Virus record (IMG/VR): IMGVR_UViG_3300005549_000035
Coordinates: 1-21,273 of that record
Direction: 5' to 3' (one strand)
Length of the DNA: 21,273 nt
Source: a virus
Under the pieces are notes generated by a model that had not been told where the DNA came from, did not search any database, and was given only the letters and a program-made list of their open reading frames with translations. The position numbers and the translations under genes were made by a program. Within the stretch, counting starts at the first letter, position 1. Each line of letters opens with the position of its first letter. Of the stretch, positions 1-14,050 are shown piece by piece.

Positions 1-3000
1 AAAAACTGCCACTCTTCCCGTCGGCGCTTAATGGCCCGCTCGTAAAGGATCCGCTCTTCCGGCTCGAGGGATCGGACAAACTTGCGCTCGAGATCCTTCG
101 ACTCGTGGAAGATGGGCTTGCGCATAATCCCCAACCCCTCGCCAATGGTCGGGCGCATGCGCTTCTTTATGTCGGCGTCGTGGTCAACCAAGGGGCGCAA
201 TTCCTGAATGGCTTTCATGGATGCGTCCGGGTCACGGTCAGCCAGCGCGGCGTCCAAGCTGCGGTATTTACTGATCGGATATACCGCAGTCAGGTTGCGC
301 TCGTAGTCGGCGCGCACCTTCGGATCCTTGTTCTGTTCCAGCCACTTGGTGTGGATGTCGGCGAGCTTTTCGTTTGGGTCAAAGCGCCCGATGCGCAGTC
401 CCACGGTGCCGGCCATTTGTTCCCACCACTTGATAGCGCCGGGCCGTTCCGCCCCAGAGACGCCGCGCACCCCCGGCAGCGACCGGATCGAAATGGGGAT
501 TGGCTGGGTGGCCAGTTCCTTGGCCGTCTGGCTGGCGGTGACCTTGCGCCCGGCGTAGTCCACACGACTGAGAAACTGCAGCGCGCCCTTGCCGATAATG
601 GGGGAAAGGCGGCTGTGCAAGAACTGCCACCCGTGGTGCATCATGTCGGTTAAATCCTGGGGAATGGACCGGATGCTGTAGCGGCGGGTGCCAACGGTGA
701 ACTCGAAGGGGGAATTTTTGTCCCACTCACCGCCCGCCAGCGAGGCGGCCGTAAACGCCGCGGCGGCTTGGCTGAGCGCCAGGGTGGACAGAGCCAGCAT
801 TTGTTCCCGGCCAGCCTTGGCACCGGTGGCACCGGACAGGGCTTGGCCCAAGAACAGCGTGCGGGCGGCCAGGAAATCAGGTGCCAGCAACCCCAGTTGG
901 GCAATGTGCAGAATCGTGGGGTTGACGCTGAAATCCGCCCAATTGAGGTGCCCGTAAGCGGCATTGGCCTGCTCGGCCGAGAGCGCCTTCACGTCCTCAG
1001 CCTTGAGCTTTCCCTGCTGCAACTGCTTTTCAAACACGCGGTTGTTGCGCTCGAGGATCGCCTCGTAGGTTTTGAACTTGAGCCCGGGAATGTACTGGTG
1101 GAACAGGTAATTCGAATACATGTCCGCCACCGGGCCCAACCCGGGGATCTTGCTCACCAAGCCGCTCGTCCTAAACCCTTCCATGAATTGCTGTTGGCTG
1201 GCCCGGTCCGGCAACAGCATGAGCCCATGCCTGGCTGCGTCCATTTGCCTGGGATCGGTGGTCAGGTTCACCTTGGGAATGTTCCCGAACGGGTTTACCC
1301 GGTGCCCCAAGCCGTGAGTGCCCGTCTGCACCTGGTGGAACGGCGCCAGCAATCCGAGCATGGTCCGCTTGGTCTCGCTGTTGAAGGCGTCAAGGAAGTG
1401 GACGATTCCCTTGGGAATGGCCGCCAGCCGGGTGGTTGGCGTCTGATACCACTCGCGAATTGCCGACTTGCCCAACACGTCCTTGAGCCGGTTATACGCC
1501 TCGGGGTGCAGGGCGACGTCGGCTTTGACGAAAATATTGTTCCCAGCCGAATCCTTGGTGACCCACTTCCAACCCTGTAACGCGGGTTGATTGGGAATCG
1601 TTTTGTAGGTGCTGAAGTCTTCCTTGGCGCTCTTGGGCAGAACCAGGGTGACGCCCGGCTCGGTGGCTGTGTCGGGAATACTCATGCCGCCGCCCAACTT
1701 GGTGACAAGCGGCTCGCCGTCCGAGGCTTTGCCCTTGCTCATTTGCTGCACCATTTCGCGGGCGGCAATCACCGATTCCATCTCGTGCATGTAAACCGGC
1801 AGCAGTTCGGAAATGTCCTTGGTCTTTGGTTTATACCCAGCCTGTTCACCGTCAAAAAACGTGGGGAACGAACTGGCCTTGGCGAACTTGAACTTCTCTT
1901 TGAGCGTGCGCCCGGTGCTGCGCTCGGCCCCGCCCACCCCGCTGCCCAAGTCCCAAATCTGGGTAACGTAGTTCTGTTTGAACGTGTCGAGAACCCCGGA
2001 ACCCTGACCGCGCTGGCCGAGCCGGTTGTAACGCCCGCGCACCTCGTTGGCCACCGCCACCTCAGCCGGGGTGAGGGTAAGAGCCGCCTGATACCCGGCT
2101 TTGAGTTTCTTATCGGTGGTGGCCGCCATGCGCTGCTGCAGGGTAGCGGCGTCACCGTCGGCTTGGATCCAGTTGGTGATGCCCTCGCGGCGGACCTTGT
2201 CGGGAACGCGCTCGCGAATATCCACCCGGGCGGCAGCGGCGTCGCCGAATGACTTCTGCAGTTTGGCCGACCAGTTGAGCACGCTGCGCCGGTAGTCGGT
2301 CATTTTGCGGGCCTTGAACGCCTCTTCCCCCAGTTCCTTGGCGCCCTTCTGCGCTTCCTCGGCAAAGCCTTTGACCTTTTCCCACGACGCTTTCACCGCC
2401 GGTGCGGCGTTGTTGAACATCGCCTGCAGCGGCTGCAGGTTTATGGCCCCGGCTTCCCCCGCCCGCGGGCGCATGGGAAGGGTCTTCTGTCTTTCTTCGG
2501 CGGATTTTAAAAGTGCTTCTGTCTGGCGAATCTGCCGTTTCAAAACAGTCTGCAATGGCCCCTCGCCTGCACCCTGTGCCACCAGCAATTGAGAACGCTG
2601 TTTTTCCAGAAGCGCCTTGAGCCGTTCCGGATTGGCCCCCTCAGGGGCAGCTTGCCCAAGATATTCACGCCGCGCCTGGGCGTACTGCGTCAGCGTTTCG
2701 TCCTCACCGCGGGCACGGAATGGCGGCTTTTCTTCCTCTGGCCGCAGGCGTTCCTCGGCTGGCCGCGGGCCTTCCTGCACTTCCGGCGGAAACTGGTCCC
2801 GGTGAGCTTCCCGGCGAATGACTTCAAGTTCGCTTGAGATCCGCATGGCTTCACCCAGCGCCGAAACGGAAACGTCTTTGGGCGAGCCAAACAGCTTATG
2901 AACCAAGTCGACGAATTTACCCCAAACATTTTTGGCTGCACCTTTGCCGCCCTTGTATTCCAGGTTGGTCAGCCAATTCTGAATCCGCGGGTTGGAAGAC

Positions 3001-5210
3001 GCCTCGGACAGAAACTCATGCACGTTTTTGAACGTGTTGTGCCCTTCAAATTCAGTGCCGCCAGCTTTCTCTTTGGCATAGGCAAAGAGCACATCAAGTT
3101 CCCCCTGCAGCGATTCAGGTGCCTGATTGTATTTGCTGGTGACAGCGTTGTGAACCAGTTCATGAGTCAGGGTTTGAAGAAAGTCGGCTTGGTTAATTGT
3201 CTGCCCGCTATTATCTTTGGACAGAACCTGAACTATTCCCTCGCGATTGCCTTCCCGCAGGCGGAAGCGTCCGCGAAATTGAGACCCGCCGTAAAACTGC
3301 TGCCGCTCGTAAGGCGACATGTCAATAATTTGGATGGGTTCCAGCGGGTGGGCCGCGTCGGGTTTGAGCAAATGCAACAGCAGCTTGTTGACAGCTTCAC
3401 CGCCGTTTAGTTCGCCGCTCTCTATTGCCTGGGCCAGCTTGCGCTCGTCCAGCAACCCGTTGCCTTTGGTAGTGAACTTCTCGTGTTCAAAAGTCAGGTG
3501 CTCGTTGCCGAATTTCTGGCGGTAGGTGTTTTCCGACTGCGACACCATTCGCTTGATATTCGTACTTCGTCTCAGATCCTCAAACTGCTTCCATATATCC
3601 TGAAATTCTTGGGTGTTGGCTTTTCCCTCACTAATCAGTTCCGCCATTCGTTTGCCGATATCCGCATGTTCCTCTGGCGACAAATGTTCCTGGCCAGGCT
3701 TGGGCGCTTCCGGCGGCATGCCACCGTACTTGTTTTTGATCGCCTCGTTGCGTTTCAGGATGTCTTGGACTTCGGACAGGTCTTTGCCTTCAGCTTTGGC
3801 CTTGGCGAAATCTTCCTGCACCTTCTGCCACTGTGCCCAATCTTCTGGGGTGGCGTGGTAGGTGGTCCCCATCGGATCACCGGTGAGCGGATTCTTGAAA
3901 CGCGAGGTGCTCAACCGCGCAACTTCTGGCTTGGCACCTTCGGCGGGCGCCAAGTGTTCTTGCGTCAGTGGTACTTCACGTTCCCCCGGCGCTTCTGCGC
4001 GTGGTGCGCCACCCTCGTTTCCGGGTGGTAACTCGCTTGGTGGAATTCCTGCACGACCTTCTTCGGCGGGCACTTGCCCTGCGCGCTGCCCGGGTTGTTC
4101 CGGCACATCTCGAAGAACTTGCGCTGCTTGTCGCTCTTGTATGGCATTTGATTCCCTTTCGTGTTCGGCCAGAGCCTTCAGTGACTCTGGCAATTCCAGC
4201 CGGCTTGGGCGTTGCGGCTGGGCAATATCGGTGGTGAGCCGGTCGACTTGGTTGAGATAGCTGGGGTCTTCAAGCCACCGCTGCCCCTGTTGCCGGGCGA
4301 AAGATTCCCGCACCATGTGCGGAATGTGCGGTGCCTCAAACGCGAGACTCGCGCCAATCTGCTCGGCCAGCATATCCGCACCCTTGAGTGGATCCTGCTG
4401 ATACGCTTCGATCAACCCGGGCGCGTTGCCAGCCGCCATGAGCGCGTTTAGGAACACTTGCCGGCCACCGGCTTCACCCGCCGCCAGGGCCGCCTTTTCA
4501 AACACTTCCGGCACAAAGCCAGCCGCCCGACCTGCTAACACCGCGCCCCCTGCCGCCCCTAGTTCGCCAATCCCCGGCATGAGCGCGCCAACCGTGCCTT
4601 GGGTGATCGCCCGGCCAATGTCGCCAGAGCGTTCCAATTCACTCAGTCCCATTTGGCCGCCGAACGCCACCGGCGCGGGCACCCCAAGACTCGTGGCCGC
4701 AAGCCCTGGCACCATTTCGCCAGCGCCTCGGACTGCCCCTTCAGCAATGCGGGCACCCAACCCGGAAGTCTGATCGATGTTGGAAACGTGCTGGCCGCCA
4801 AGCGCCTGGTTCAACAGCGGAAACTCGCCGCTCTGAATGCCGCCGGCACCGATATCAGAGACAAAGCCAACACCTGTGTTCCCGGCAAATTCCGTGGCTG
4901 CGTGCACCGGCTTGGCCAGTGGCCGCAGCGCCGAGCCAACGGGTCCGAGCGGGTTCTCTGGGGTGAGTGACCAAGGCTCGACCACGTTGCGCGAGAGAAA
5001 GCCATACATGTTGGCTTGCCGCTCTGCTTCCTGGCCCGCTGCCTGTTCCTGCAGCATGCGCTCGTAGTCGCTGATTTCACTACGGACCATCGGCTGGCGC
5101 ATGCCCTCAGGCATCATGAGCCGCGGGGGCGGGGCGATGTCTTCCCACGGGATCCCGTAGTCGTCGGGGGCGAACTCTTCTTCCAAACCGTCTGGCAGTT
5201 CAACGGGCAT
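1..5210 (-). CDS. Giant internal virion / large polyvalent-type protein with HExxH metallopeptidase-like domain (partial, C-terminus beyond the left edge)
   Basis: I translated this frame by hand: it is open from ATG 5210 to the window edge, giving 1736 codons without a stop. The start overlaps the upstream stop as TAATG. Residues 19-22 are GIPW within an acidic context, a motif shared with the gene at 6220-7254. Residues ~65-200 are Gly/Ala-rich and hydrophobic-helical. Residues ~355-416 form a Pro/Glu/Gln-rich linker. A zinc-peptidase-like HELVH lies at 683-687, followed by EFLSEASSNP with Glu736, a pattern known in large phage and mobile-element polyvalent proteins. The rest is mostly helical and charged. 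Around 1477-1510 there is a hydrophobic stretch, then RRYSIRSIP and a D-Y-A-G-R segment typical of the C-terminal parts of such proteins. No Cys codon was found. By position it corresponds to T7 gp16, an ejected core protein; that role is inferred. Peptidase activity is not proven. Confidence 0.82.
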   Translation of the reverse strand, partial: MPVELPDGLEEEFAPDDYGIPWEDIAPPPRLMMPEGMRQPMVRSEISDYERMLQEQAAGQEAERQANMYGFLSRNVVEPWSLTPENPLGPVGSALRPLAKPVHAATEFAGNTGVGFVSDIGAGGIQSGEFPLLNQALGGQHVSNIDQTSGLGARIAEGAVRGAGEMVPGLAATSLGVPAPVAFGGQMGLSELERSGDIGRAITQGTVGALMPGIGELGAAGGAVLAGRAAGFVPEVFEKAALAAGEAGGRQVFLNALMAAGNAPGLIEAYQQDPLKGADMLAEQIGASLAFEAPHIPHMVRESFARQQGQRWLEDPSYLNQVDRLTTDIAQPQRPSRLELPESLKALAEHERESNAIQERQAAQVLRDVPEQPGQRAGQVPAEEGRAGIPPSELPPGNEGGAPRAEAPGEREVPLTQEHLAPAEGAKPEVARLSTSRFKNPLTGDPMGTTYHATPEDWAQWQKVQEDFAKAKAEGKDLSEVQDILKRNEAIKNKYGGMPPEAPKPGQEHLSPEEHADIGKRMAELISEGKANTQEFQDIWKQFEDLRRSTNIKRMVSQSENTYRQKFGNEHLTFEHEKFTTKGNGLLDERKLAQAIESGELNGGEAVNKLLLHLLKPDAAHPLEPIQIIDMSPYERQQFYGGSQFRGRFRLREGNREGIVQVLSKDNSGQTINQADFLQTLTHELVHNAVTSKYNQAPESLQGELDVLFAYAKEKAGGTEFEGHNTFKNVHEFLSEASSNPRIQNWLTNLEYKGGKGAAKNVWGKFVDLVHKLFGSPKDVSVSALGEAMRISSELEVIRREAHRDQFPPEVQEGPRPAEERLRPEEEKPPFRARGEDETLTQYAQARREYLGQAAPEGANPERLKALLEKQRSQLLVAQGAGEGPLQTVLKRQIRQTEALLKSAEERQKTLPMRPRAGEAGAINLQPLQAMFNNAAPAVKASWEKVKGFAEEAQKGAKELGEEAFKARKMTDYRRSVLNWSAKLQKSFGDAAAARVDIRERVPDKVRREGITNWIQADGDAATLQQRMAATTDKKLKAGYQAALTLTPAEVAVANEVRGRYNRLGQRGQGSGVLDTFKQNYVTQIWDLGSGVGGAERSTGRTLKEKFKFAKASSFPTFFDGEQAGYKPKTKDISELLPVYMHEMESVIAAREMVQQMSKGKASDGEPLVTKLGGGMSIPDTATEPGVTLVLPKSAKEDFSTYKTIPNQPALQGWKWVTKDSAGNNIFVKADVALHPEAYNRLKDVLGKSAIREWYQTPTTRLAAIPKGIVHFLDAFNSETKRTMLGLLAPFHQVQTGTHGLGHRVNPFGNIPKVNLTTDPRQMDAARHGLMLLPDRASQQQFMEGFRTSGLVSKIPGLGPVADMYSNYLFHQYIPGLKFKTYEAILERNNRVFEKQLQQGKLKAEDVKALSAEQANAAYGHLNWADFSVNPTILHIAQLGLLAPDFLAARTLFLGQALSGATGAKAGREQMLALSTLALSQAAAAFTAASLAGGEWDKNSPFEFTVGTRRYSIRSIPQDLTDMMHHGWQFLHSRLSPIIGKGALQFLSRVDYAGRKVTASQTAKELATQPIPISIRSLPGVRGVSGAERPGAIKWWEQMAGTVGLRIGRFDPNEKLADIHTKWLEQNKDPKVRADYERNLTAVYPISKYRSLDAALADRDPDASMKAIQELRPLVDHDADIKKRMRPTIGEGLGIMRKPIFHESKDLERKFVRSLEPEERILYERAIKRRREEWQF
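3965..4147 (-). CDS. Small phage protein of the MP[YF]KS-x-x-QR type, nested out of frame inside the giant gene
   Basis: This 60-codon ORF is shifted +1 relative to the giant frame on the same strand. It begins MPYKSDKQRKFFEMC and continues with GKCPPKKVVQEFHQAS. This matches a recurring small phage/prophage protein pattern known to me: Met-Pro-[Tyr/Phe]-Lys-Ser, Gln-Arg, an aromatic pair, then a Val-x-x-[Glu/Asp]-Phe-x-x-Ala segment. That similarity is from memory, not a search. Upstream of the ATG is AAAGGGA with a 5-nt spacer, a better Shine-Dalgarno candidate than most genes here have. In the giant frame the same DNA encodes a low-complexity, Pro/Glu/Gln-rich linker, as expected if the giant ORF reads through a pre-existing small gene. 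The final ~20 residues are less typical of the family. Function is unknown; it may be basic and nucleic-acid binding. Chance resemblance is the alternative. Confidence 0.55.
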   Translation of the reverse strand: MPYKSDKQRKFFEMCRNNPGSAQGKCPPKKVVQEFHQASYHPETRVAHHAQKRRGNVKYH

Positions 5211-6211
5211 TACGGTTCCAGGTCTTCGTCGTCCGCGGCGGGCTCGAGATCCTCTTCGTCGGTCGGTGGCTCTTCTTCACCGGGTTCAAGCTCGTTGGCA
5301 GCCAGTTCTTCGGGCGGAATGTTTTCCATTTCCTTGCCCGCTGCTTTCTCAGTGGACGGTGCAGTCATGTCCTCAAGCTCTTTGAGAATACCGTCTCGCT
5401 GTTTTTTGAGCAGCTTCTCTTGGGCGGGGCTGTCCGGTTCTTCGATCAAACCCTTAATGACAGCCAGCCGGTCGGTCAGAATTTTGGCTCGCTCGGCCAG
5501 GGTCATTTGCGGCCGCACAGCTTGCACACCGCCATGGGGCCCGCGAATGGCCATGCCGCCAACTGGCTTCCCAGACTCGTCCAATATCGGTTGCGCTGTA
5601 ATTGGGCCAGTGGCCACGCCAGCGGCGGCTCGAGGCGCAAATGTCGGCGTGCCCGTCCGCGAATTTACCAAGTAGGATTGGCCGGCGGCGTTGGTCGCCT
5701 CTTTGGGCATTCCCACCGGCGTCACTGCGCGTAGTGTCTGGCCAAGCGCCTGTGGTTTGTCGGCAAACAAATTGGGCGCGTTCTCGGCCAGAAGCTTCTC
5801 GAGTGGCACGCCCGCTTTCAGTCCTTCCTGCACCGCCTTCATGCCTTCCATTTTGCGGGCGGCTGAGGCGGCTTCCTGTTCGGCGGCTTTCTCGCGTATG
5901 CGCAACTGACGTTCAAATTGTTGGGCGCGCATCGCTTGCTGTTCCCGGCGCATTTGCAGCTGGGCAGCATGCTGGGCAAGCTCGGCGTCGCGGGTCTCTT
6001 TCAATACCTGGGCATGGCGCTCGCTGGCCCGTTCCTGCGCGGCAAGCCGGGCGTTCTGCATTTCCTGCTCTTGCTGCAGCCGCTGGTATTGGATCTGCGC
6101 GTTGCGCTCGGCGATGGCTTGCGCCCCACGCTGGGCGTTGGACCGCTGCAAAATCCGAGCCGGCTCGATTGGATCAATCCGCAGCCAGGGGGGCATTGTC
6201 ACGTCAGCCAT
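5210..6211 (-). CDS. Probable internal virion (ejection) protein, coiled-coil rich
   Basis: This 333-residue protein starts MADVTMPPWLRIDPIEPAR. Residues ~20-130 are extremely rich in Gln, Arg, Glu and Ala with heptad character, suggesting a long coiled coil. A Gly/Ala/Pro-containing middle follows, then a second charged helical region at ~235-285. The C-terminus is very acidic and ends with two EDLEP units. It has no cysteine and no signal peptide or membrane segment. The ATG lies 8 nt after the previous stop, and its own stop overlaps the next start (TAATG), so it is probably translationally coupled to the giant gene. Its place between a gp14-like and a gp16-like gene suggests the role of T7 gp15, a core protein ejected into the host. 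That is inference from order and composition only. Confidence 0.72.
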   Translation of the reverse strand: MADVTMPPWLRIDPIEPARILQRSNAQRGAQAIAERNAQIQYQRLQQEQEMQNARLAAQERASERHAQVLKETRDAELAQHAAQLQMRREQQAMRAQQFERQLRIREKAAEQEAASAARKMEGMKAVQEGLKAGVPLEKLLAENAPNLFADKPQALGQTLRAVTPVGMPKEATNAAGQSYLVNSRTGTPTFAPRAAAGVATGPITAQPILDESGKPVGGMAIRGPHGGVQAVRPQMTLAERAKILTDRLAVIKGLIEEPDSPAQEKLLKKQRDGILKELEDMTAPSTEKAAGKEMENIPPEELAANELEPGEEEPPTDEEDLEPAADDEDLEP

Positions 6212-6219
6212 AGAATTGG

Positions 6220-7254
6220 TCAGTAAGAGGATTCGTCATCAAAGCCGCCGGCAGAGGAATAGTCCCACGGGATCCCGAAGTCATTCGGATCGTCGCTCAC
6301 CGGCTGGTTGTAATCCCACGGGATTCCGTAGTCGTTGACGTCAGTGCTGGAAGAAGTGTCCCACGGGATCCCAAAATCCTCTGGGTTATCACTAACCGGC
6401 GCCGATGAATTCCAGGGGATTCCGTAATCGTCGGGTGTCCAAGCGCCATTGTTGTAGGGGATACTGCCATAAGGTGCGGGATTCATGCCCGCGTTTTGTC
6501 CCATGGGGGATCCTGCGGTTCCTCTGCCAATTATCGGCGGACCTGAACCCGCACCAAAACCAACCCCGCCCCCGTAACGCTTCAAAATGTCGTCCACTGA
6601 ACTGCCCGCGCTGGCCCCGCCGCCACCGTATCGAATGCCGGGCGTCCCGCCGCCCCCGCCGCCACCGCCCCCGCCGCCGGCTGCCGCTCGCGCCCGTTGG
6701 TAGGCGTCCTCTGGCACCGGCGCGGCCCGGTATTGGTCGGCCCGGTTCTGCGCGTCCAATTGGTGGTTGATGATCCCGGTGACATCGGTCGGGCCCACCT
6801 TTGGGATCAACCCCTGAATGGCCCCCAAGCCAGCGAGCGCCTGGTTCTGCACGTCGTAGCGGGTAAGGCCGATGTCGCGCAACAGCTTGGTGTTTTCCAT
6901 CCCGCTGCCAGAGAAACCGCCGCCCACGGCGCGCTCGGCCGAGTTTTGCTGAAGCTCGGGCAGCAAATCTGAAATATCACCGGCAGCGCGTCGCCCGACA
7001 TTTCCCAGCAGTGTTCCAAGCACGCTGAAATAGTCGCTGGGGTACTGTTTGCGCAGCGCATCCAGCGCGCTGCCGGTGAGTCCACCTTGAATGGCGGTCA
7101 GGTCGCCCAAGTTGCCCTTGACGGTTCCTATCGGCGAAGTGACCCCGGGAATGCCGCCGCTGGCCCGGTTGTAATCGCGAGGCGGGGCGCCGGTGAGTCC
7201 ATACCCACCACCACCGCCCACACCGCCACCAAAACGTCCACCTGTTACGGCCAT
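6220..7254 (-). CDS. Probable internal virion protein with poly-Gly tract and four D-[YF]-G-I-P-W repeats
   Basis: This 344-residue protein starts MAVTGGRFGGG. The Gly-rich N-terminus is followed by a helical region (~45-190) containing GSGMENTKLLRDIGL and NRADQYRAAPVPEDAYQRA, resembling phage internal virion proteins that sit between tail genes and large ejected proteins. An uninterrupted poly-Gly run lies near residue 200. The C-terminal third is Pro/Gly/Asn/Asp-rich and ends in four repeats centred on GIPW at 278-281, 295-298, 310-313 and 327-330. The same motif occurs at residues 19-22 of the giant protein two genes downstream. There is no cysteine. The start lies 4 nt after the previous stop with no clear Shine-Dalgarno sequence. 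By order it matches T7 gp14; this is inferred. Confidence 0.75.
   Translation of the reverse strand: MAVTGGRFGGGVGGGGGYGLTGAPPRDYNRASGGIPGVTSPIGTVKGNLGDLTAIQGGLTGSALDALRKQYPSDYFSVLGTLLGNVGRRAAGDISDLLPELQQNSAERAVGGGFSGSGMENTKLLRDIGLTRYDVQNQALAGLGAIQGLIPKVGPTDVTGIINHQLDAQNRADQYRAAPVPEDAYQRARAAAGGGGGGGGGGGTPGIRYGGGGASAGSSVDDILKRYGGGVGFGAGSGPPIIGRGTAGSPMGQNAGMNPAPYGSIPYNNGAWTPDDYGIPWNSSAPVSDNPEDFGIPWDTSSSTDVNDYGIPWDYNQPVSDDPNDFGIPWDYSSAGGFDDESSY
6262..6432 (-). repeat. Four tandem protein-coding repeats encoding [DN]-[DE]-[YF]-G-I-P-W
   Basis: Four copies are spaced 17, 15 and 17 codons apart at the 3' end of the 344-aa gene, and the DNA itself is similar between copies. The copy at 6314-6336 matches 21 of 23 bases with 5143-5165 in the giant gene, so the related motif is preserved at nucleotide level between two separate genes. 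Confidence 0.9.
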
Positions 7255-7258
7255 AATT

Positions 7259-8311
7259 TTAGAACAGCGAACCGATTCGCTGGTTGTTGAGTTTTGCTGT
7301 GCCCCACGGGGCGAAGTTGATTGCCGGATGCTCTTTGCCGAGCTTGTGCCGCAATTGCCCGTTGAGCAGGCGAATGGCTTTTTTGTGCCGCTCGTCGGCT
7401 TGCCCCAGCGACGTCGTGTCGTCCATTTCCGAGAAGCGCACCGCCTGACATTCTTCCTTCAGAGCCGCCAAGCTCTGGATCATCAGATAATCGGTGTCGG
7501 CCAAAACGGGAATGAACTCAAGCTTGGCCATGGCGGTGACCTGCACCTGTGACACGCCCGGCAAAGTCGGGTTGCAGCAGTTCATGGGCAAGCCGTTCAG
7601 GAAATAACGCCGGTAGTTGGCCACCTCTTCGCTCGGCTGCATGGTCACTAACAACCGCTGCTCGCCGGTCACCGTGTCCACCTCATAAATGGGAACCGTC
7701 CCAATGGTCACGTCCTTCTGAATGCCGGTGATAAGGCTGAAATCCAGCGGGGTATCGACGAAGGGTTGCGTGAGCGAAACGTAAATTCCCGATACCTGAT
7801 CAAAGCCGTCGAGACTGTAAATGGTCGAGCCGTTGCCGTCCTGGCCCTGAAAGAGCACGCGCCGATTCACGTCGGCGGCATCGGTGGTGTAGGCACGAAG
7901 CCGCTTGTTGCCGGCAATCAAGTCCACCATGGTGGGAAACGTCCCACGGTCGTAGGTCTCGAGCCGGTTGCAATTGTTGTTGGGGCAACCCACCTGCGGC
8001 TGCAGCCCGATGCCAGCCTCGAGGAACTCATAAAACTCGTTCTGAATCCGAACGGGGAAATTGCACACGTCCAGATTGATCAGCCGGGCGACGGTGCGCG
8101 GCAGGGTGACAAAGGGGTCAGTCAACGAATCGACGTTGAAGATCATCTTGGCCCAACTACCCCACCAACCCACTTCACCCCCGGCGAAGATCAGCCGCTC
8201 TTGCGCCTCGTTGACTATCTGAATCAGTTCCGACTGGTCGGCGTCGCAGCGGCCAATGGATTGGGGAATGCGCGAGGTGCGGACATCTTTCAATCTGAGG
8301 AATGGAATCAT
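7259..8311 (-). CDS. Probable head-tail adaptor (tail tubular A-like) protein
   Basis: This 350-residue protein starts MIPFLRLKDVRTSRIPQSIG. The ATG at 8311, 2 nt after the previous stop, is preferred over an upstream in-frame start at 8386 that would overlap the preceding gene by 73 bp. The N-terminal part contains IVNEAQERLIFAGGEVGWWG, followed by TLPRTVARL and an NEFYEFLEAGIG segment. This arrangement recurs in phage connector/adaptor proteins located beside nozzle genes, comparable in role to T7 gp11. The C-terminal part is helical and charged (KEECQAVRF, LLNGQLRHKLGKE). Seven cysteines include CPNNNC and a CC pair. Adaptors of this kind bridge the portal and the nozzle. The assignment rests on remembered family motifs and gene order, not a database match. 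Confidence 0.65.
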   Translation of the reverse strand: MIPFLRLKDVRTSRIPQSIGRCDADQSELIQIVNEAQERLIFAGGEVGWWGSWAKMIFNVDSLTDPFVTLPRTVARLINLDVCNFPVRIQNEFYEFLEAGIGLQPQVGCPNNNCNRLETYDRGTFPTMVDLIAGNKRLRAYTTDAADVNRRVLFQGQDGNGSTIYSLDGFDQVSGIYVSLTQPFVDTPLDFSLITGIQKDVTIGTVPIYEVDTVTGEQRLLVTMQPSEEVANYRRYFLNGLPMNCCNPTLPGVSQVQVTAMAKLEFIPVLADTDYLMIQSLAALKEECQAVRFSEMDDTTSLGQADERHKKAIRLLNGQLRHKLGKEHPAINFAPWGTAKLNNQRIGSLF

Positions 8312-8313
8312 AT

Positions 8314-9780
8314 TCAGGGTGGTGTCAGTGGACGCACCGTTAGAAAGCCGTTGAGCGTGCCGGCAAAGACGCCGGTGGCCGTGCAATAGATTCTCACCGT
8401 GTTGACGCCCGACGGCAGCGGCAGCGTCACCTGGAAGTTGTAATTGCCGTTGGCAGCGCCCACCGGACTGGGGTGGTCCACCCCGTTCAGACGCAGAATC
8501 GCCTGGGTGTTGACCACGACAAACCCGGCCACGGTCCAGCTTATATCCAGGGTGAAGTCATACGGATCCTGTTGCGGGTTGCAGATCTGGGCGGTGGCTT
8601 CCACAAATGGGCCAGCCGGATCCACGCCCGTGAACACGCCGTCACCGGCGGCAATGGCAATCGTCCCGGCAGCCGGCGGGGAAATCTGGGTCCACGCCGC
8701 ATCGGCAATTGAATCAGCTTCACCCATGCAATCGACGCCGGAAACCACCTCGAGAGAAAATTGTTTCGTGCAACTGACCGGTGCCCCGTTGCAGGTGGCG
8801 TCACATTTAAGGGTGAAGGTGAACGTGTCTTCCTCGGTGGGCGTCCCGCTCAAAGCCCCGTTTGAAGCCAGCGTAATTCCCGGGGGCAGCGTCCCGCCGA
8901 TCTGAGTCCACACCTCGCTGGATACGCTCGCCGGATCCTGCACCAAGGGGGTCATGTAAGCCTGGCCGTTGGTCGCCTCGGGCAGGGTCGCCCCCGTCAC
9001 AATTTCCATCACGCAAATGGAAAGCGTCTTGGTGTTGGTCACCCCGCGGGCGTCAATCACCTCAACCTCGAAGGTGAAGCTGCCGCTGGCCATGGGCGTG
9101 CCGCTGATAACCCCGGTCGAACTGTTCAGGTCCACCCCGGGCGGCAGGTCGCCAAAGAAATTCCACTCGTAAGAACCATCCGAAAACGTGGTCCCGCCGC
9201 TGGCTTGCAGCCGGGCGCTGTAGCTGTCCCCCAAGCAAATGCTGGGCAAGCTATCGGTGATGAAACAGATCTGCTCTAAAATGGCCCGCTTGCAGGCGAG
9301 CGACTTGGCTTTCTCGTCGGCTTCCGCCTGGGTGAGGGCGACCACGGTTCCGGCAGCCACTTCGCCGGTGAAGGATTGCCCATCCGGACAACTGACGTCG
9401 CATGTCTGGCGCCGATTGCGGAACACCCGCACCGGACTGCGGGGGTTGTTGATCGGTATGTCGTCGGGATTCCCGTTGCCCTTGCGCTTGCCGTTCGGCC
9501 CCGGGGGTATGGGCGGCTGGTGGGGCGGTTGCCACGTTCGCCAAACGCACAATGACGACGAGCGCCGGGCGCAGTCGTTGGCTTCCTGCTGTGAGACCTG
9601 AGAGAAGCAGATCGTTTTGCAACCCAACTGCGCGTAAATCACCCCTAATGGCGGGTTGCCGCGGAAATCGCGGAAGGCCACGAAAACGTCAACATCCGGA
9701 TTCTCTGCCGTCAGATTGGCAATGGGCGAGTCATTGCACGGAAGACACGAGTTTAAAACTAGGTTGCAAGGAACGATCAT
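8314..9780 (-). CDS. Cys-rich structural protein with two He_PIG/Ig-like domains
   Basis: This 488-residue protein starts MIVPCNLVLNSCLPCNDS. The ATG overlaps the nozzle-gene stop as ATGA. About 19 cysteines are present. Residues 1-80 are Cys-rich, followed by a Pro-rich stretch (81-115). Residues ~127-175 carry CPDGQSFTGEVAAGT and TQAEADEKA, similar to the C-P-x-G...A-G-T...Q-A-x-A-D pattern seen in DUF5977-like repeats; a degenerate earlier copy may lie at ~53-80. Two Ig-like modules follow at ~183-258 and ~262-346, each with the He_PIG signature L-P-P-G-[VI]...G-x-[IL]-S-G-T-P. The C-terminal ~135 residues look like a beta-sandwich. The likely role is a surface-exposed tail or decoration protein, possibly binding host glycans. 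Position between nozzle and adaptor supports virion location. Confidence 0.68.
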   Translation of the reverse strand: MIVPCNLVLNSCLPCNDSPIANLTAENPDVDVFVAFRDFRGNPPLGVIYAQLGCKTICFSQVSQQEANDCARRSSSLCVWRTWQPPHQPPIPPGPNGKRKGNGNPDDIPINNPRSPVRVFRNRRQTCDVSCPDGQSFTGEVAAGTVVALTQAEADEKAKSLACKRAILEQICFITDSLPSICLGDSYSARLQASGGTTFSDGSYEWNFFGDLPPGVDLNSSTGVISGTPMASGSFTFEVEVIDARGVTNTKTLSICVMEIVTGATLPEATNGQAYMTPLVQDPASVSSEVWTQIGGTLPPGITLASNGALSGTPTEEDTFTFTLKCDATCNGAPVSCTKQFSLEVVSGVDCMGEADSIADAAWTQISPPAAGTIAIAAGDGVFTGVDPAGPFVEATAQICNPQQDPYDFTLDISWTVAGFVVVNTQAILRLNGVDHPSPVGAANGNYNFQVTLPLPSGVNTVRIYCTATGVFAGTLNGFLTVRPLTPP

Positions 9781-12227
9781 ATAACAACGGTCCAGCCGCG
9801 TCCGCTGAGAGTGGCCATGTTCGCCGCGGATAGCGAGGTATCCAACCCCACCAAGAACACCTGCCCATTGTTTAAGCCATTAGCAACGAGTTGGCCAAGG
9901 ATCGAGTTTACGGTGGCCGCGCTGAACAGGTTTACCGAAAGTTCCAAAATCACCACGCCCACCGGCAGGGTGGGAATGGTGGTGAGTTGGTTCCCGCCCA
10001 CTTCCACGTCAGTCAGACTGGAAGGCAGATTGGTGATCGACGTGATGAAATTTGAGGAACAGGCGAACCGGGTCAGGTTACCCGTGGTCGGCAGCGCCGG
10101 AATGGAAATCAGGCTGTTGGAATTGACGAGGATCGTTTCGGTGTCGACCAAAAGGTTCAACCCGGTGATCGCGCTCACAGCGTGGCCGGTCACCTCGAAA
10201 TAACCCATGTCGTTCAGATTGGCTGTGGACAGGAACGTAGCCAAATCGCCAGTGAAGAAGTTCCCGACGTTGTCTTCCCAATAGGCGCTGGCGGTGTCGG
10301 GCGTCCAGCTGATCGCGCTGACCGGCGGTTCCGGTTCCGGTTCCGGCTCTGGTTCAGGCTCTGGCGTTGGTGTTGGCGTTGGCGCCGCGGACGTAGAGGC
10401 GGAAGCCGATTCTGTTTCAAAGAAATTCGACGGGCCGCATACGCAACTCTTGTAGGGCTCTTTGGCCCGCGGCTGGGCGAACACGCGCAAGCCCCGCAGC
10501 CGGCACCACCCTTTGATCGTGAGCCGGATCTGGAACTGATACCCCTCGGTGGTGGGCCGGGCGTTGTTGGGTTCACACTGGTTTGGCGGCTGAGGCAATG
10601 TGACGGTGGCTTTGAAACCCTCGCAGTAGGGTTGCACCGGGTAAGCCGGGCAAGTGACCGCCTCGGGATCTTCACGGCAATCTTTGGCGGTGCATTGCTT
10701 CCAGGCGTGCCACATGATCCAACACGGATTCTGGTCCACCTTGTATTCCACCATGAAATTGACCGTGCCCAACATCTTGTCGAACCACAGTTCGAGTCCA
10801 TCCAGCTTTTTGAGCATGAACGGATCGCCCCAAGTGTAGGCAGGCGTTTCGATAAACCACGTCACCCGGTCCCCATCGCCGTTGACCTGACTATCCCAGC
10901 GGTTCTGGGTGGTCATTTCCCACAGGTCAATATTCCCGGTGAGCTTGCTGACGATGAAAGAAAAACCACGCGGCAACCCGCCAAAGTCACCTGAGAGCAG
11001 CTGCAGAAAATACAAACCCTCGTACATCCCTTCCCACGCCGGCGGCATCCGGTTGCCGATGGTTCCCAGCAGATCAAAGTCCAGCAGCGTGACCGCCTGA
11101 AATGCCACCCCCTTGAGCGTCTGGAACGGGACCGCTGACTGCCAGAGCCGATTGTCGAAACTCATGCCCGTGGAAAAGCGCATTAACTCACGGTCGTTGA
11201 ATTGCAACAGGCGACCGACAGGCGTGCTGATGGGCACGTTTCCCCACTGGTCGAAATAGCGCACGGCTACCGTCAAGCTGCGGATCCCGTCCATGGCTTG
11301 GTAAAACAGGTCGCCGTTGACGGGCACGACGCACCGGTCCCCCACCGAGCCGAAATCAATTTGTATCACCCGCTGCAACGGCTCGCGCAACAACTTCCAC
11401 TCGGCCCGGGTCGGCGGAACGTCGGTCGCGTAAATTGACCGGCGCGTGAAAACGTAAAGCTGGCCCTGGCCAAGAGCGGTATTGAGGTTGGCTGAGTGCC
11501 GCAGGCAACGAATGTTGCCGGCCATGGTGGGAACGATGAAGGCGTCCCCTGCCAGGGAAACCGGGTTCTCGGTGTCCTTCAGAATCGAGTCCCGGTAATT
11601 ATACGCCGGGGTGCCTGATACCTGGCTGCCCACAATGTCCCCGCCGGCATACTGGCGCCCGAAGGCGTACCAGATCCGGCCCATGTAATAATCCATCGGG
11701 CCAGCCGCCTTCAGTTCGTTGCCGGGATTGCCCACACCCAGAAACCCCTTGGACCGGCGCAGCGTGGCCCCATCCCAAAACAGCGGCAGGGTAGTCAGGT
11801 CGCCAGCCTGAATGACGAGGAACTGCTCGCCCTGAACGAAGAAATATTCCGGCTCGTTGGGCGGCATGGCCGTGCCGGGGAAAGCTGAGGTCAAGTTCAC
11901 CACCGAGTTATCGGTGTCGACGTTGATCCGGTAAATCTGCCCGCCAATGGCAGCGATAAGGTAGGGATTTGCAAACGGCGGCTCGTAGAGGTAGGCGCCC
12001 TGAAAAATTCCCTGCCAAGGCACATTCTGAACAAGTGGCCGCCAGCCCGTGCGCTGCAACACCCCGCCACCGCGCATTGTCGCATTGGTTGCCCAAGCCA
12101 GCTGATTGCGTTTCAGTCCGGTTTCAAATCCAGGGGAAACAATTGTGGGGACAACGCCAGAGTCAATTCCGGCAATCCAATCAAGCTGGCCGTCAACAAT
12201 GCGAACTGTGGTGCCGTTAGTGGCCAT
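9777..12227 (-). CDS. Tail nozzle-like protein with Pro-Glu linker and C-terminal leucine-rich-repeat domain
   Basis: This protein has 816 residues from the ATG at 12227 (MATNGTTVRIVDGQLDW). An upstream in-frame start at 12320 would run into the divergent terminase gene and is less likely. Residues ~1-590 have the character of podovirus nozzle (tail tubular B/gp12-type) proteins: NQLAWATNATMRGGG near the start, then repeated beta-rich blade-like segments with conserved WY and GD motifs. Residues 616-635 are a Thr-Pro/Glu-Pro linker. Residues ~699-760 hold about three 20-residue LRR-like units (LTRFACSSNFITSI, LTDVEVGGNQLTTI). The C-terminus ends NSILGQLV...LSGRGWTVVI, a common ending of phage or environmental LRR adhesin modules. 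Twelve cysteines are present. The LRR part is probably a receptor-binding extension. It is the first gene of the run left of the terminase and has no evident Shine-Dalgarno sequence. Confidence 0.72.
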   Translation of the reverse strand: MATNGTTVRIVDGQLDWIAGIDSGVVPTIVSPGFETGLKRNQLAWATNATMRGGGVLQRTGWRPLVQNVPWQGIFQGAYLYEPPFANPYLIAAIGGQIYRINVDTDNSVVNLTSAFPGTAMPPNEPEYFFVQGEQFLVIQAGDLTTLPLFWDGATLRRSKGFLGVGNPGNELKAAGPMDYYMGRIWYAFGRQYAGGDIVGSQVSGTPAYNYRDSILKDTENPVSLAGDAFIVPTMAGNIRCLRHSANLNTALGQGQLYVFTRRSIYATDVPPTRAEWKLLREPLQRVIQIDFGSVGDRCVVPVNGDLFYQAMDGIRSLTVAVRYFDQWGNVPISTPVGRLLQFNDRELMRFSTGMSFDNRLWQSAVPFQTLKGVAFQAVTLLDFDLLGTIGNRMPPAWEGMYEGLYFLQLLSGDFGGLPRGFSFIVSKLTGNIDLWEMTTQNRWDSQVNGDGDRVTWFIETPAYTWGDPFMLKKLDGLELWFDKMLGTVNFMVEYKVDQNPCWIMWHAWKQCTAKDCREDPEAVTCPAYPVQPYCEGFKATVTLPQPPNQCEPNNARPTTEGYQFQIRLTIKGWCRLRGLRVFAQPRAKEPYKSCVCGPSNFFETESASASTSAAPTPTPTPEPEPEPEPEPEPPVSAISWTPDTASAYWEDNVGNFFTGDLATFLSTANLNDMGYFEVTGHAVSAITGLNLLVDTETILVNSNSLISIPALPTTGNLTRFACSSNFITSITNLPSSLTDVEVGGNQLTTIPTLPVGVVILELSVNLFSAATVNSILGQLVANGLNNGQVFLVGLDTSLSAANMATLSGRGWTVVI
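10323..10382 (-). repeat. Short repeat encoding the Thr-Pro / Glu-Pro linker of the nozzle protein
   Basis: Three TP and six EP dipeptides are encoded by six-base near-repeats (GGTTCC and GGCTCT types on the plus strand). The repeat sits exactly between the nozzle-like part and the LRR part of the protein. Such DNA can change length by slippage in whole-codon steps. Confidence 0.88.
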
Positions 12228-12268
12228 GAGCTTGCACGGTAAGCACTGCGCTAATAAGGTCAACTTCA
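12228..12268. promoter_or_regulatory. 41-bp divergent intergenic region between terminase and nozzle genes
   Basis: This is the only gap between two genes transcribed away from each other. On the minus strand there is a TTGACC box at 12259-12264 without a convincing -10 box. On the plus strand TTGCAC (12232-12237) and TAATAA (12252-12257) are present, but their spacer is only 14 bp. AAGG precedes the terminase ATG by 9 nt. An imperfect inverted repeat (AGCAC-T-GCGCT) lies between. A compact bidirectional promoter is possible; no element is conclusive. Confidence 0.3.
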
Positions 12269-14050
12269 ATGGCCAACTACGTTTCCCTCTACGGCGCCCG
12301 CTGGGAACCTCTTCTTTCACCCGTCACCGTTGAGGCAATTATGATCCGGCGCGGTGGTCGCTGGAAGAAAACCAAGAGCGCGGAATACGTCGGCAACGGT
12401 CTTTACTTCCACTTCAAACGCTTCATCAGCTTGATTTGGCCCGAGCACATTTGGCACCGGTGGAACGAACTGGAACTGGAAGCGTACCTGAACCACCGGA
12501 TCATCGGCGAGATGGGCCCGGCGTCCAGCGGCAAGACGCACTCGGCGGCCATTCACGTCCTGGCCGATTACTACGTGTGGTTTGACTGCACCACCGTGTT
12601 GGTTTCGTCCACCGAACGGGAAATGCTCGAGATGCGCGTTTGGGGTGAAATTAAGAAGTACCACCGCATGGCCAAGGACAGGTTCCCCAATATCATCCCG
12701 GGCAATTTGCTCGAGAGCCGGCTGCGCATCGTGAGCGATAGCAAATGGGACGCTGAGGACGGCCGAGATTTCCGCAACGGCATTTGCGGGGTGCCCTGCA
12801 AAAAGGGCGGCAGCTACGTCGGCTTGGGCAGCTTCGCCGGTATCAAAAACAAGCGCGTCCGCATGGTCGCCGACGAGTGCCACCTCATGCACCGGGTTTT
12901 CGTCGATGCGATCAGCAACCTGAACAAAAACGCGGATTTCAAGTGCGTCGCGCTGGGCAACCCCAAGGAAACCACGGACGCCCTTGGCATGATTTGCGAG
13001 CCTGCCGCGCACCTGGGCGGGTGGGATGGTGGCATTGACCAAGCGCCCAAAACAAAGTCGTGGGCCACCCGCTTTGATCAGGGGATCTGCGTACAGTTGG
13101 TCGGCAGCGACTCGCCCAATCTCGACGGCAAGTTGGGTATCCCGCTTATCGAGCAGAAGTCCATTGACGCGGACATTGCCTTTTACGGGAAAGACTCGCT
13201 GCAGTTCACCATGATGAACGAGGGGCGCATGCCCCGCGGCCAGGGATTGCGCCGGGTCATCACTCGCCAAATGTGCCTGAAGTTCGGCGCTATGGAAGAA
13301 CCGCTGTGGAAGAATACCAACCGCACGCAGATTGCCTTTCTGGACGCGGCTTATGGCAGCATCGGCGGGGACCGCTGCATTTTCGGGCGGCTCGAGTTCG
13401 GCATGGACCCAAACGACGTCCAGCTGTTGGCGCTGTTGGAAACCATGATCGTCCCGGTGAGCGTCGAGGTGGACGAGATACCCGAGGACCAAATTGCCAA
13501 TTTCGTCAAAAAGCGGTGCGAGGAAAACGAGATCCCACCGCACAATTTCGGCTTCGATTCCACCGGACGCGGGACGCTCATGGGCGCGTTCGCCAGAATT
13601 TGGTCCCCCTACGTGGTGCCCATTGAGTTTGGCGGGAAACCTTCCGAGCGCCCGGTGACCTGGCTGCCCACGGACCAAAAGATAACCTGCCGTGATTACT
13701 ACTCAAAGTTTGTCACCGAACTGTGGTACTCGGTTGCCCTCACCATTCAGAGCCGCCAGTTCCGGGGCATGACCGAAGAGGTGATGAACGAGGGGTGCAT
13801 GCGCGAGTGGGGATTTGTCGGGGCCAACAAGATCGAGGTTGAGCCCAAGGACAAAATGAAGCTCAAAACGGGGCGCTCGCCCGACTTGTTTGACGGCTTG
13901 GTCACAGGTGTGGAAATGGCCCGGCGGCTGGGTTTTATCATCGCCACCATTCGAGCGAAGGATTCCACCATCAAAAACGACGAGTGGAAAAACGTCTATC
14001 GCGAGCGCATGCAGCGCCTCGAGACCAACCACCGGCTCACCTACACCTGA
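12269..14050 (+). CDS. terL: Terminase large subunit (DNA-packaging ATPase/nuclease)
   Basis: This 593-residue protein powers packaging of phage DNA into the prohead through the portal and cuts the concatemer. Walker A GPASSGKT is at 83-90 and Walker B RMVADE at 198-203; an LGNP coupling-type motif is at 229-232. The RNase H-fold nuclease half has candidate metal ligands D359 (IAFLDAAYG), D430 (FGFDSTGRG) and D539/D542 (SPDLFDGLV). Start 12269 has AAGG 9 nt upstream. An alternative start at 12341 (MIRRGGRWKK) has GAGG 5 nt upstream, so the first 24 residues are uncertain. It is the only clear plus-strand gene. Its stop abuts the stop of the minus-strand gene at 14051 with no base between, and it diverges from the nozzle gene across 41 bp. 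No small terminase is seen nearby. Confidence 0.93.
   Translation: MANYVSLYGARWEPLLSPVTVEAIMIRRGGRWKKTKSAEYVGNGLYFHFKRFISLIWPEHIWHRWNELELEAYLNHRIIGEMGPASSGKTHSAAIHVLADYYVWFDCTTVLVSSTEREMLEMRVWGEIKKYHRMAKDRFPNIIPGNLLESRLRIVSDSKWDAEDGRDFRNGICGVPCKKGGSYVGLGSFAGIKNKRVRMVADECHLMHRVFVDAISNLNKNADFKCVALGNPKETTDALGMICEPAAHLGGWDGGIDQAPKTKSWATRFDQGICVQLVGSDSPNLDGKLGIPLIEQKSIDADIAFYGKDSLQFTMMNEGRMPRGQGLRRVITRQMCLKFGAMEEPLWKNTNRTQIAFLDAAYGSIGGDRCIFGRLEFGMDPNDVQLLALLETMIVPVSVEVDEIPEDQIANFVKKRCEENEIPPHNFGFDSTGRGTLMGAFARIWSPYVVPIEFGGKPSERPVTWLPTDQKITCRDYYSKFVTELWYSVALTIQSRQFRGMTEEVMNEGCMREWGFVGANKIEVEPKDKMKLKTGRSPDLFDGLVTGVEMARRLGFIIATIRAKDSTIKNDEWKNVYRERMQRLETNHRLTYT

Follow-up and report, generated by a model that had tools for sequence, protein, structure and literature searches.

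A giant gene on the minus strand of the window (the whole stretch analysed, a 21.3-kb IMG/VR record of 21,273 nt, 13 kb of which match a segment of the 55-kb contig L011 at 99.985% identity) wholly encloses a small conserved gene, on the same strand and in the +1 frame. Stop codons, difference rates by codon position, codon randomisation and Shine-Dalgarno (SD) sites reveal selection on both frames. The best reading, to which we give a probability of about 0.85, is a true dual-coding region, in which the small protein would be made from an internal start inside the giant mRNA and the giant frame would be read as a linker. The comparison of relatives shows homology, recurrence, a single copy per scanned contig, avoidance of stops, frame-specific constraint, SD sites and open RNA, and from it we infer that the small frame is actually translated.

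Results

The nested gene and its surroundings

The features of the region are collected in Table 1. The initial annotation had reported a 60-codon ORF in the +1 frame of the giant gene without stating its strand; it is present on the minus strand (4147..3965) and its product is MPYKSDKQRKFFEMCRNNPGSAQGKCPPKKVVQEFHQASYHPETRVAHHAQKRRGNVKYH (60 aa; stop TGA). Its start falls within giant codon 355, it spans giant codons 355-415, and the AAAGGGA that had been described five bases 5' of its ATG was found there on the same strand. The giant frame reads the nest as NAIQERQAAQVLRDVPEQPGQRAGQVPAEEGRAGIPPSELPPGNEGGAPRAEAPGEREVP, a P/E/Q/G/A-rich composition that bears out its description as a P/E/Q-rich linker.

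As the giant gene contains eleven further out-of-frame ORFs of 52-128 aa on its own strand, a length of 60 codons is by itself unremarkable. None of these eleven had a match at E<1e-3 among the fetched relatives. The nested ORF matched at least 93 fetched loci (best E 2e-26); this count is biased because the loci were mostly retrieved with the nested ORF or its relatives, the strength of the matches being unbiased. Between the window and L003, DNA identity reaches 77.5% in a 191-bp island whose limits are very nearly those of the nested ORF; elsewhere the giant genes have diverged much further.

Table 1. Features of the window around the nested gene.
Feature	Position	Strand	Remarks
Giant gene	3..5210	-	at least 1736 codons, reaches window edge; encloses nested gene
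HELVH (HExxH) metallopeptidase-like motif	3150..3164	-	in giant protein; motif only
Nested small gene	3965..4147	-	60 aa, basic, pI about 10; +1 frame of giant gene
SD-like AAAGGGA	4153..4159	-	5-nt spacer to nested-gene ATG
Gene upstream of giant gene	5210..6211	-	homologue also upstream of L003 giant gene
Structural-module gene	7259..8386	-	conserved; syntenic upstream of giant in most nested-gene contigs

The nested state recurs in uncultured viruses

Viral contigs were scanned with the 60-aa protein, two alignments and the L005 protein as queries, and bacterial and archaeal genomes were covered by one scan for small-protein homologues. The loci were retrieved via the small gene, so the sample is biased. 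Locus counts are lower bounds. Classification of the open reading frames distinguished three states: a separate gene, the N-terminal part of a longer protein and a fully nested gene. At least 24 contigs carried the small gene nested, comprising at least 23 distinct small genes (window included), whose enclosing ORFs range from 1125 to over 3400 codons, and one (L140) in a Patescibacteria MAG contig, with an enclosing ORF of at least 615 codons. Besides the window, at least 23 very different uncultured viruses share the arrangement, and in every nested case, L140 included, the small frame is shifted by +1 from the giant one. Nested cases come from metagenomic contigs only; a search of 50,697 phage records gave no nested case, and no cultured phage with this state was found. 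Two loci were left out of the nested set: in L074 the two other phases are both open and a longer in-frame ORF terminates in the motif, and in L060 a longer small ORF likewise has the motif as its in-frame C-terminal part.

Exactly one copy was present, nested or separate, in all 27 distinct copy-bearing contigs scanned whole; the sole contig scanned whole that lacks the small gene is L012, which holds an un-nested relative of the giant gene. Separate homologues occur also in jumbo phages, in the head module of Stenotrophomonas phage BUCT555 (between the terminase and capsid genes) and in Armatimonadota chromosomes (Chthonomonas and Fimbriimonas contigs). That of L017 also lies in a head module, overlapping by ATGA and directly 5' of a gene that reads as portal-like from its sequence, with no database match. 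Two Armatimonadota genome contigs carry separate homologues at L141 1150-1299, upstream of genes that look ClpP- and ClpX-like and with no obvious prophage, and at L142 3521-3682. In another phage (L062, 2849-8171), the giant gene is un-nested and the separate small gene comes 4 nt behind it, which makes L062 a natural comparison phage.

Internal start signals

An SD core of at least 4 nt precedes all nested starts (22/22, 100%) vs. 23% of 1878 control starts, which are the out-of-frame ATG/GTG codons of the same giants; for a core of at least 5 nt the figures are 86% and 6%. The 45-nt start region was less folded than GC-matched positions of the same phase in 22/22 cases (p=2e-7). In the dual-coding reading, the small basic protein would be translated from its own internal SD site and start codon within the giant-protein mRNA.

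SD-like motifs can also stimulate frameshifting. A +1 programmed shift from the giant frame would produce a truncated giant protein ending in the small domain, and both the SD-like motif and the invariable +1 position of the small frame are in keeping with such a shift. Nevertheless, an ATG or GTG is retained in all nested cases with the SD at initiation spacing, RNA structure at the nested start is weak, the open stretch of the small frame upstream of the start shrinks to just 5 codons in L005, and separate homologues begin with the same Met-Pro as the nested genes. We consider frameshifting very improbable compared with internal initiation.

Both frames are constrained

No stop interrupts the giant phase across 23/23 nested genes, and the same phase is open in 2/59 separate homologues. 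T occupies 4% of small-gene third positions in nested genes and 21% in separate ones; a T before codons starting with AA, AG or GA would create a giant-phase stop. When codons were randomised with the small proteins fixed, 27 giant-phase stops were expected and none was observed, and giant-phase similarity was 0.89±0.08, or 1.13±0.06 with stops forbidden, compared to the 2.17 observed. The corresponding z-scores for giant-frame similarity, which come from related sequences and are not to be taken as probabilities, were 14.4 for nested genes vs. 0.5 to 2.0 in three groups of separate homologues, so shared ancestry alone is insufficient to account for the similarity of the nested giant frames.

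These values bear on the proposal that translation in the giant frame does not pass across the nest, its N- and C-terminal parts being separate genes that flank the small gene and the frame between them being open by chance. In favour of such a split, the giant flanks are mosaic and often unalignable, but the zero stops against 27 expected, the open giant phase in nested genes against separate ones and a z of about 14 make this the least credible of the alternatives, slightly behind frameshifting.

By codon position of the small gene (1, 2 and 3), the difference rates were.318/.295/.456 in nested and.335/.315/.617 in separate genes, and those at giant positions 1, 2 and 3 outside the nest were.466/.387/.632. 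Since the second base of each small codon is the third base of a giant codon, the giant wobble position is the most variable outside the nest and the least variable inside it; thus, the codon period flips phase inside the nest. For L124 and L130, in which both flanks could be aligned, giant position 3 differed at.200 in the nest vs..480 and.497 in the flanks.

Alternatively, the small frame could be untranslated and owe its conservation to the constraint acting on the giant protein or to an RNA or DNA element in the giant gene, and the giant frame in the nest is also more conserved than codon shuffling gives. Yet with the giant residues fixed, shuffling destroyed the small frame (similarity 0.59±0.08 randomised vs. 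3.81 observed), the small protein is better conserved in the nest than the giant reading (59% vs. 41% identity), and the small gene exists separately elsewhere, with start and SD kept in 22/22 nested cases. Such a secondary effect is accordingly as improbable as frameshifting. The claim that two proteins are encoded by one stretch is strongly supported by comparative evidence from stops, rates, randomisation, SD sites and RNA.

The small protein

The window protein had been assigned to a widespread family of small phage proteins, and this is supported by way of its relatives. The protein itself has no Pfam, PHROG or NCBIfam match, and none to phrog_16759 up to E=10; it matches the L003 member at E 2e-27 and the L004 member at E 3e-12, and 27/41 aligned homologues match phrog_16759 (best 7e-19). 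The family signature is an MPxxSxxQ(Q/R)(R/K)F(F/M) start, often two cysteines and then (K)KVxxEF; the window protein has the N-terminal MP..S.KQ, Cys15/Cys26 and KKV..EF. Like the nested gene, the phrog_16759 family has this start, a Cys pair in many members and a VAxEF motif, but the annotated phage matches inspected are separate genes or N-terminal fusions and none is nested out of frame. Invariant in alignment A2 are M1, P2, S5, K7, Q8, C15, P19, C26, P27, K29, V31, E34 and F35. A relation to DUF3008 was considered and dropped: there was no Pfam match and the term is absent from the searched literature.

The small proteins are basic (pI 9.5-11.1). An AlphaFold2 model of the 60-aa protein (pLDDT 77; helices 6-17, 29-39 and 42-53) indicates that it is probably three-helical. 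A structure search with this model gave no notable PDB match, and the best BFVD matches were weak and to uncharacterised phage proteins, including those of Serratia phage 2050HW and, lower, of 201phi2-1. In N-terminal fusions, relatives of the small protein begin proteins annotated as virion structural, and the N-terminal module of the virion structural proteins of phrog_22033 and phrog_25121 is this same family. From its neighbours and fusions, the small protein is likely to have a role in assembling the head or virion, in packaging or in association with the DNA, alongside which it may itself be packaged.

The giant gene

The giant gene sits in a structural module common to the nested-gene contigs, a position that fits an internal or ejected virion protein. 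The initial annotation had labelled the product an ejection and polyvalent protein; position, size and the HExxH motif agree with these labels, but Pfam searches found no domain above cut-off and no known polyvalent-protein domain in the window giant or in four other giants. The giant reading of the nest has 17% hydrophobic residues vs. 28%, being lower in 22/22 cases, and ribosomes in the giant frame would read these bases as a hydrophilic linker between domains. Many giants have only the SD and the small gene in common.

Other features of the window were noted. An upstream gene (6220-7254, minus strand) ends in repeats of a (D/E)(Y/F)GIPW motif, accompanied by a direct DNA repeat (6254-6335/6350-6431), and the motif occurs once near the giant N-terminus, at about 5140-5170: FAPDDYGIPWEDI. 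It is a possible docking motif between virion proteins. The terminase large subunit (12269-14050, plus strand; phrog_2, E 2e-6) is encoded in the opposite direction from the window's other long genes, and an 847-aa protein (9777-12320, minus strand) has an EPEPEPEP linker followed by a leucine-rich-repeat-like C-terminus (phrog_21719, 3e-9).

Discussion

Known comparators

The closest architecture is that of lambda Rz1, an o-spanin gene fully embedded in Rz in the +1 frame (phage lambda, T7; PMC6139136). As in the nest, a small phage gene with its own start lies entirely inside a larger one in another frame, and other members of the o-spanin class are overlapped or separate (PMC6139136). In contrast, Rz and Rz1 act together and the inner protein is proline-rich, whereas in the nest a giant protein that seems unrelated reads the shared bases as its linker. 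The o-spanins occur in +1 as well as in -1, without frame bias (PMC6139136), whereas the inner gene here belongs to a widespread conserved family and only +1 is seen. Embedded phage genes are thus already known, and what is different here is the age relation of the frames, the partners and the recurrence in one fixed phase. De novo overprinted viral genes (PMC8227390) share with the nest two constrained frames on the same strand and a disorder-prone novel frame, but there the novel frame is usually the one of restricted distribution and often the inner one; by that rule the outer frame is the newcomer here. Polyvalent proteins (PMC5512222) resemble the window giant in their giant size, mosaic make-up, peptidase-like motif and virion module, but no Pfam domain was found in the window giant; a term search of that paper gave no mention of out-of-frame genes. 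Full-text searches of a literature set with few subscription papers found no description of the nested arrangement.

Origin of the nest

Overlap is normally ascribed to the birth of a small gene within an older one. The inner gene does not fit a de novo origin, being widespread in many phages, jumbo phages and Armatimonadota chromosomes, and since the widest distribution marks the ancestral frame (PMC8227390), the small-frame reading would be ancestral and the giant-frame reading of the nest new. Loss of T from small-gene third positions would have made the giant-frame reading possible, and a coding frame extended across the small gene would be the origin of the nest.

The giant phase is that of a downstream gene overlapping the small-gene stop by 1 or 4 nt, and 16/50 separate homologues overlap a downstream start in this phase, which would explain the invariant +1 nesting phase. 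A fossil ATGA start, with all nested stops TGA, was rejected because the stops are mixed (TAA 9, TGA 8, TAG 5).

The small gene could, instead, have been copied together with its SD into the linker of an existing giant gene, a history that is compatible with dual coding. In L062 the separate gene immediately follows the giant gene, in L069, which shares a contig with L026, it lies in the capsid module between homologues of window genes that abut in the window, and the little that many giants share beyond the SD and small gene points the same way. On the other hand, an unadapted insert would almost always bring giant-frame stops, as the two open separate genes of 59 indicate, and over the 36-codon core the other phase is open more often than the giant phase (23/59 vs. 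4/59 separate genes) yet never used. We regard relocation as a serious candidate, falling somewhat short of even odds. Of the earlier proposal that the giant grew through a resident gene, the greater age of the small gene stands, judged by distribution; the read-through itself is plausible, with relocation about equally open in view of the L062 and L069 locations and the mosaic flanks.

A single origin of nesting is unsupported, as the small-protein tree mixes states and nested genes do not form one clade; the tree, a weak one built on 54 columns, implies 13 state changes, of which its supported branches require at least 4. Comparison with the un-nested L062 and L012 as empty sites gave no clean junction, since mainly the C-terminal or post-nest parts align.

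Implications

Extension of the downstream frame and relocation aside, the nest reverses the usual order, the inner gene being old and the enclosing reading new. That giant virion genes repeatedly absorbed the small gene, always in the downstream stop-overlap phase, is a tentative and rather unlikely generalisation; if true, long proteins grow by extending a coupled downstream frame over resident genes, and working old genes remain inside the linkers of long proteins. Gene finders that bar full out-of-frame nesting may overlook a class of conserved phage proteins. Because the nest recurs and separate homologues serve as controls, the cost and mechanics of dual coding are directly measurable in a system where one stretch of DNA appears to be kept for two proteins across many viruses.
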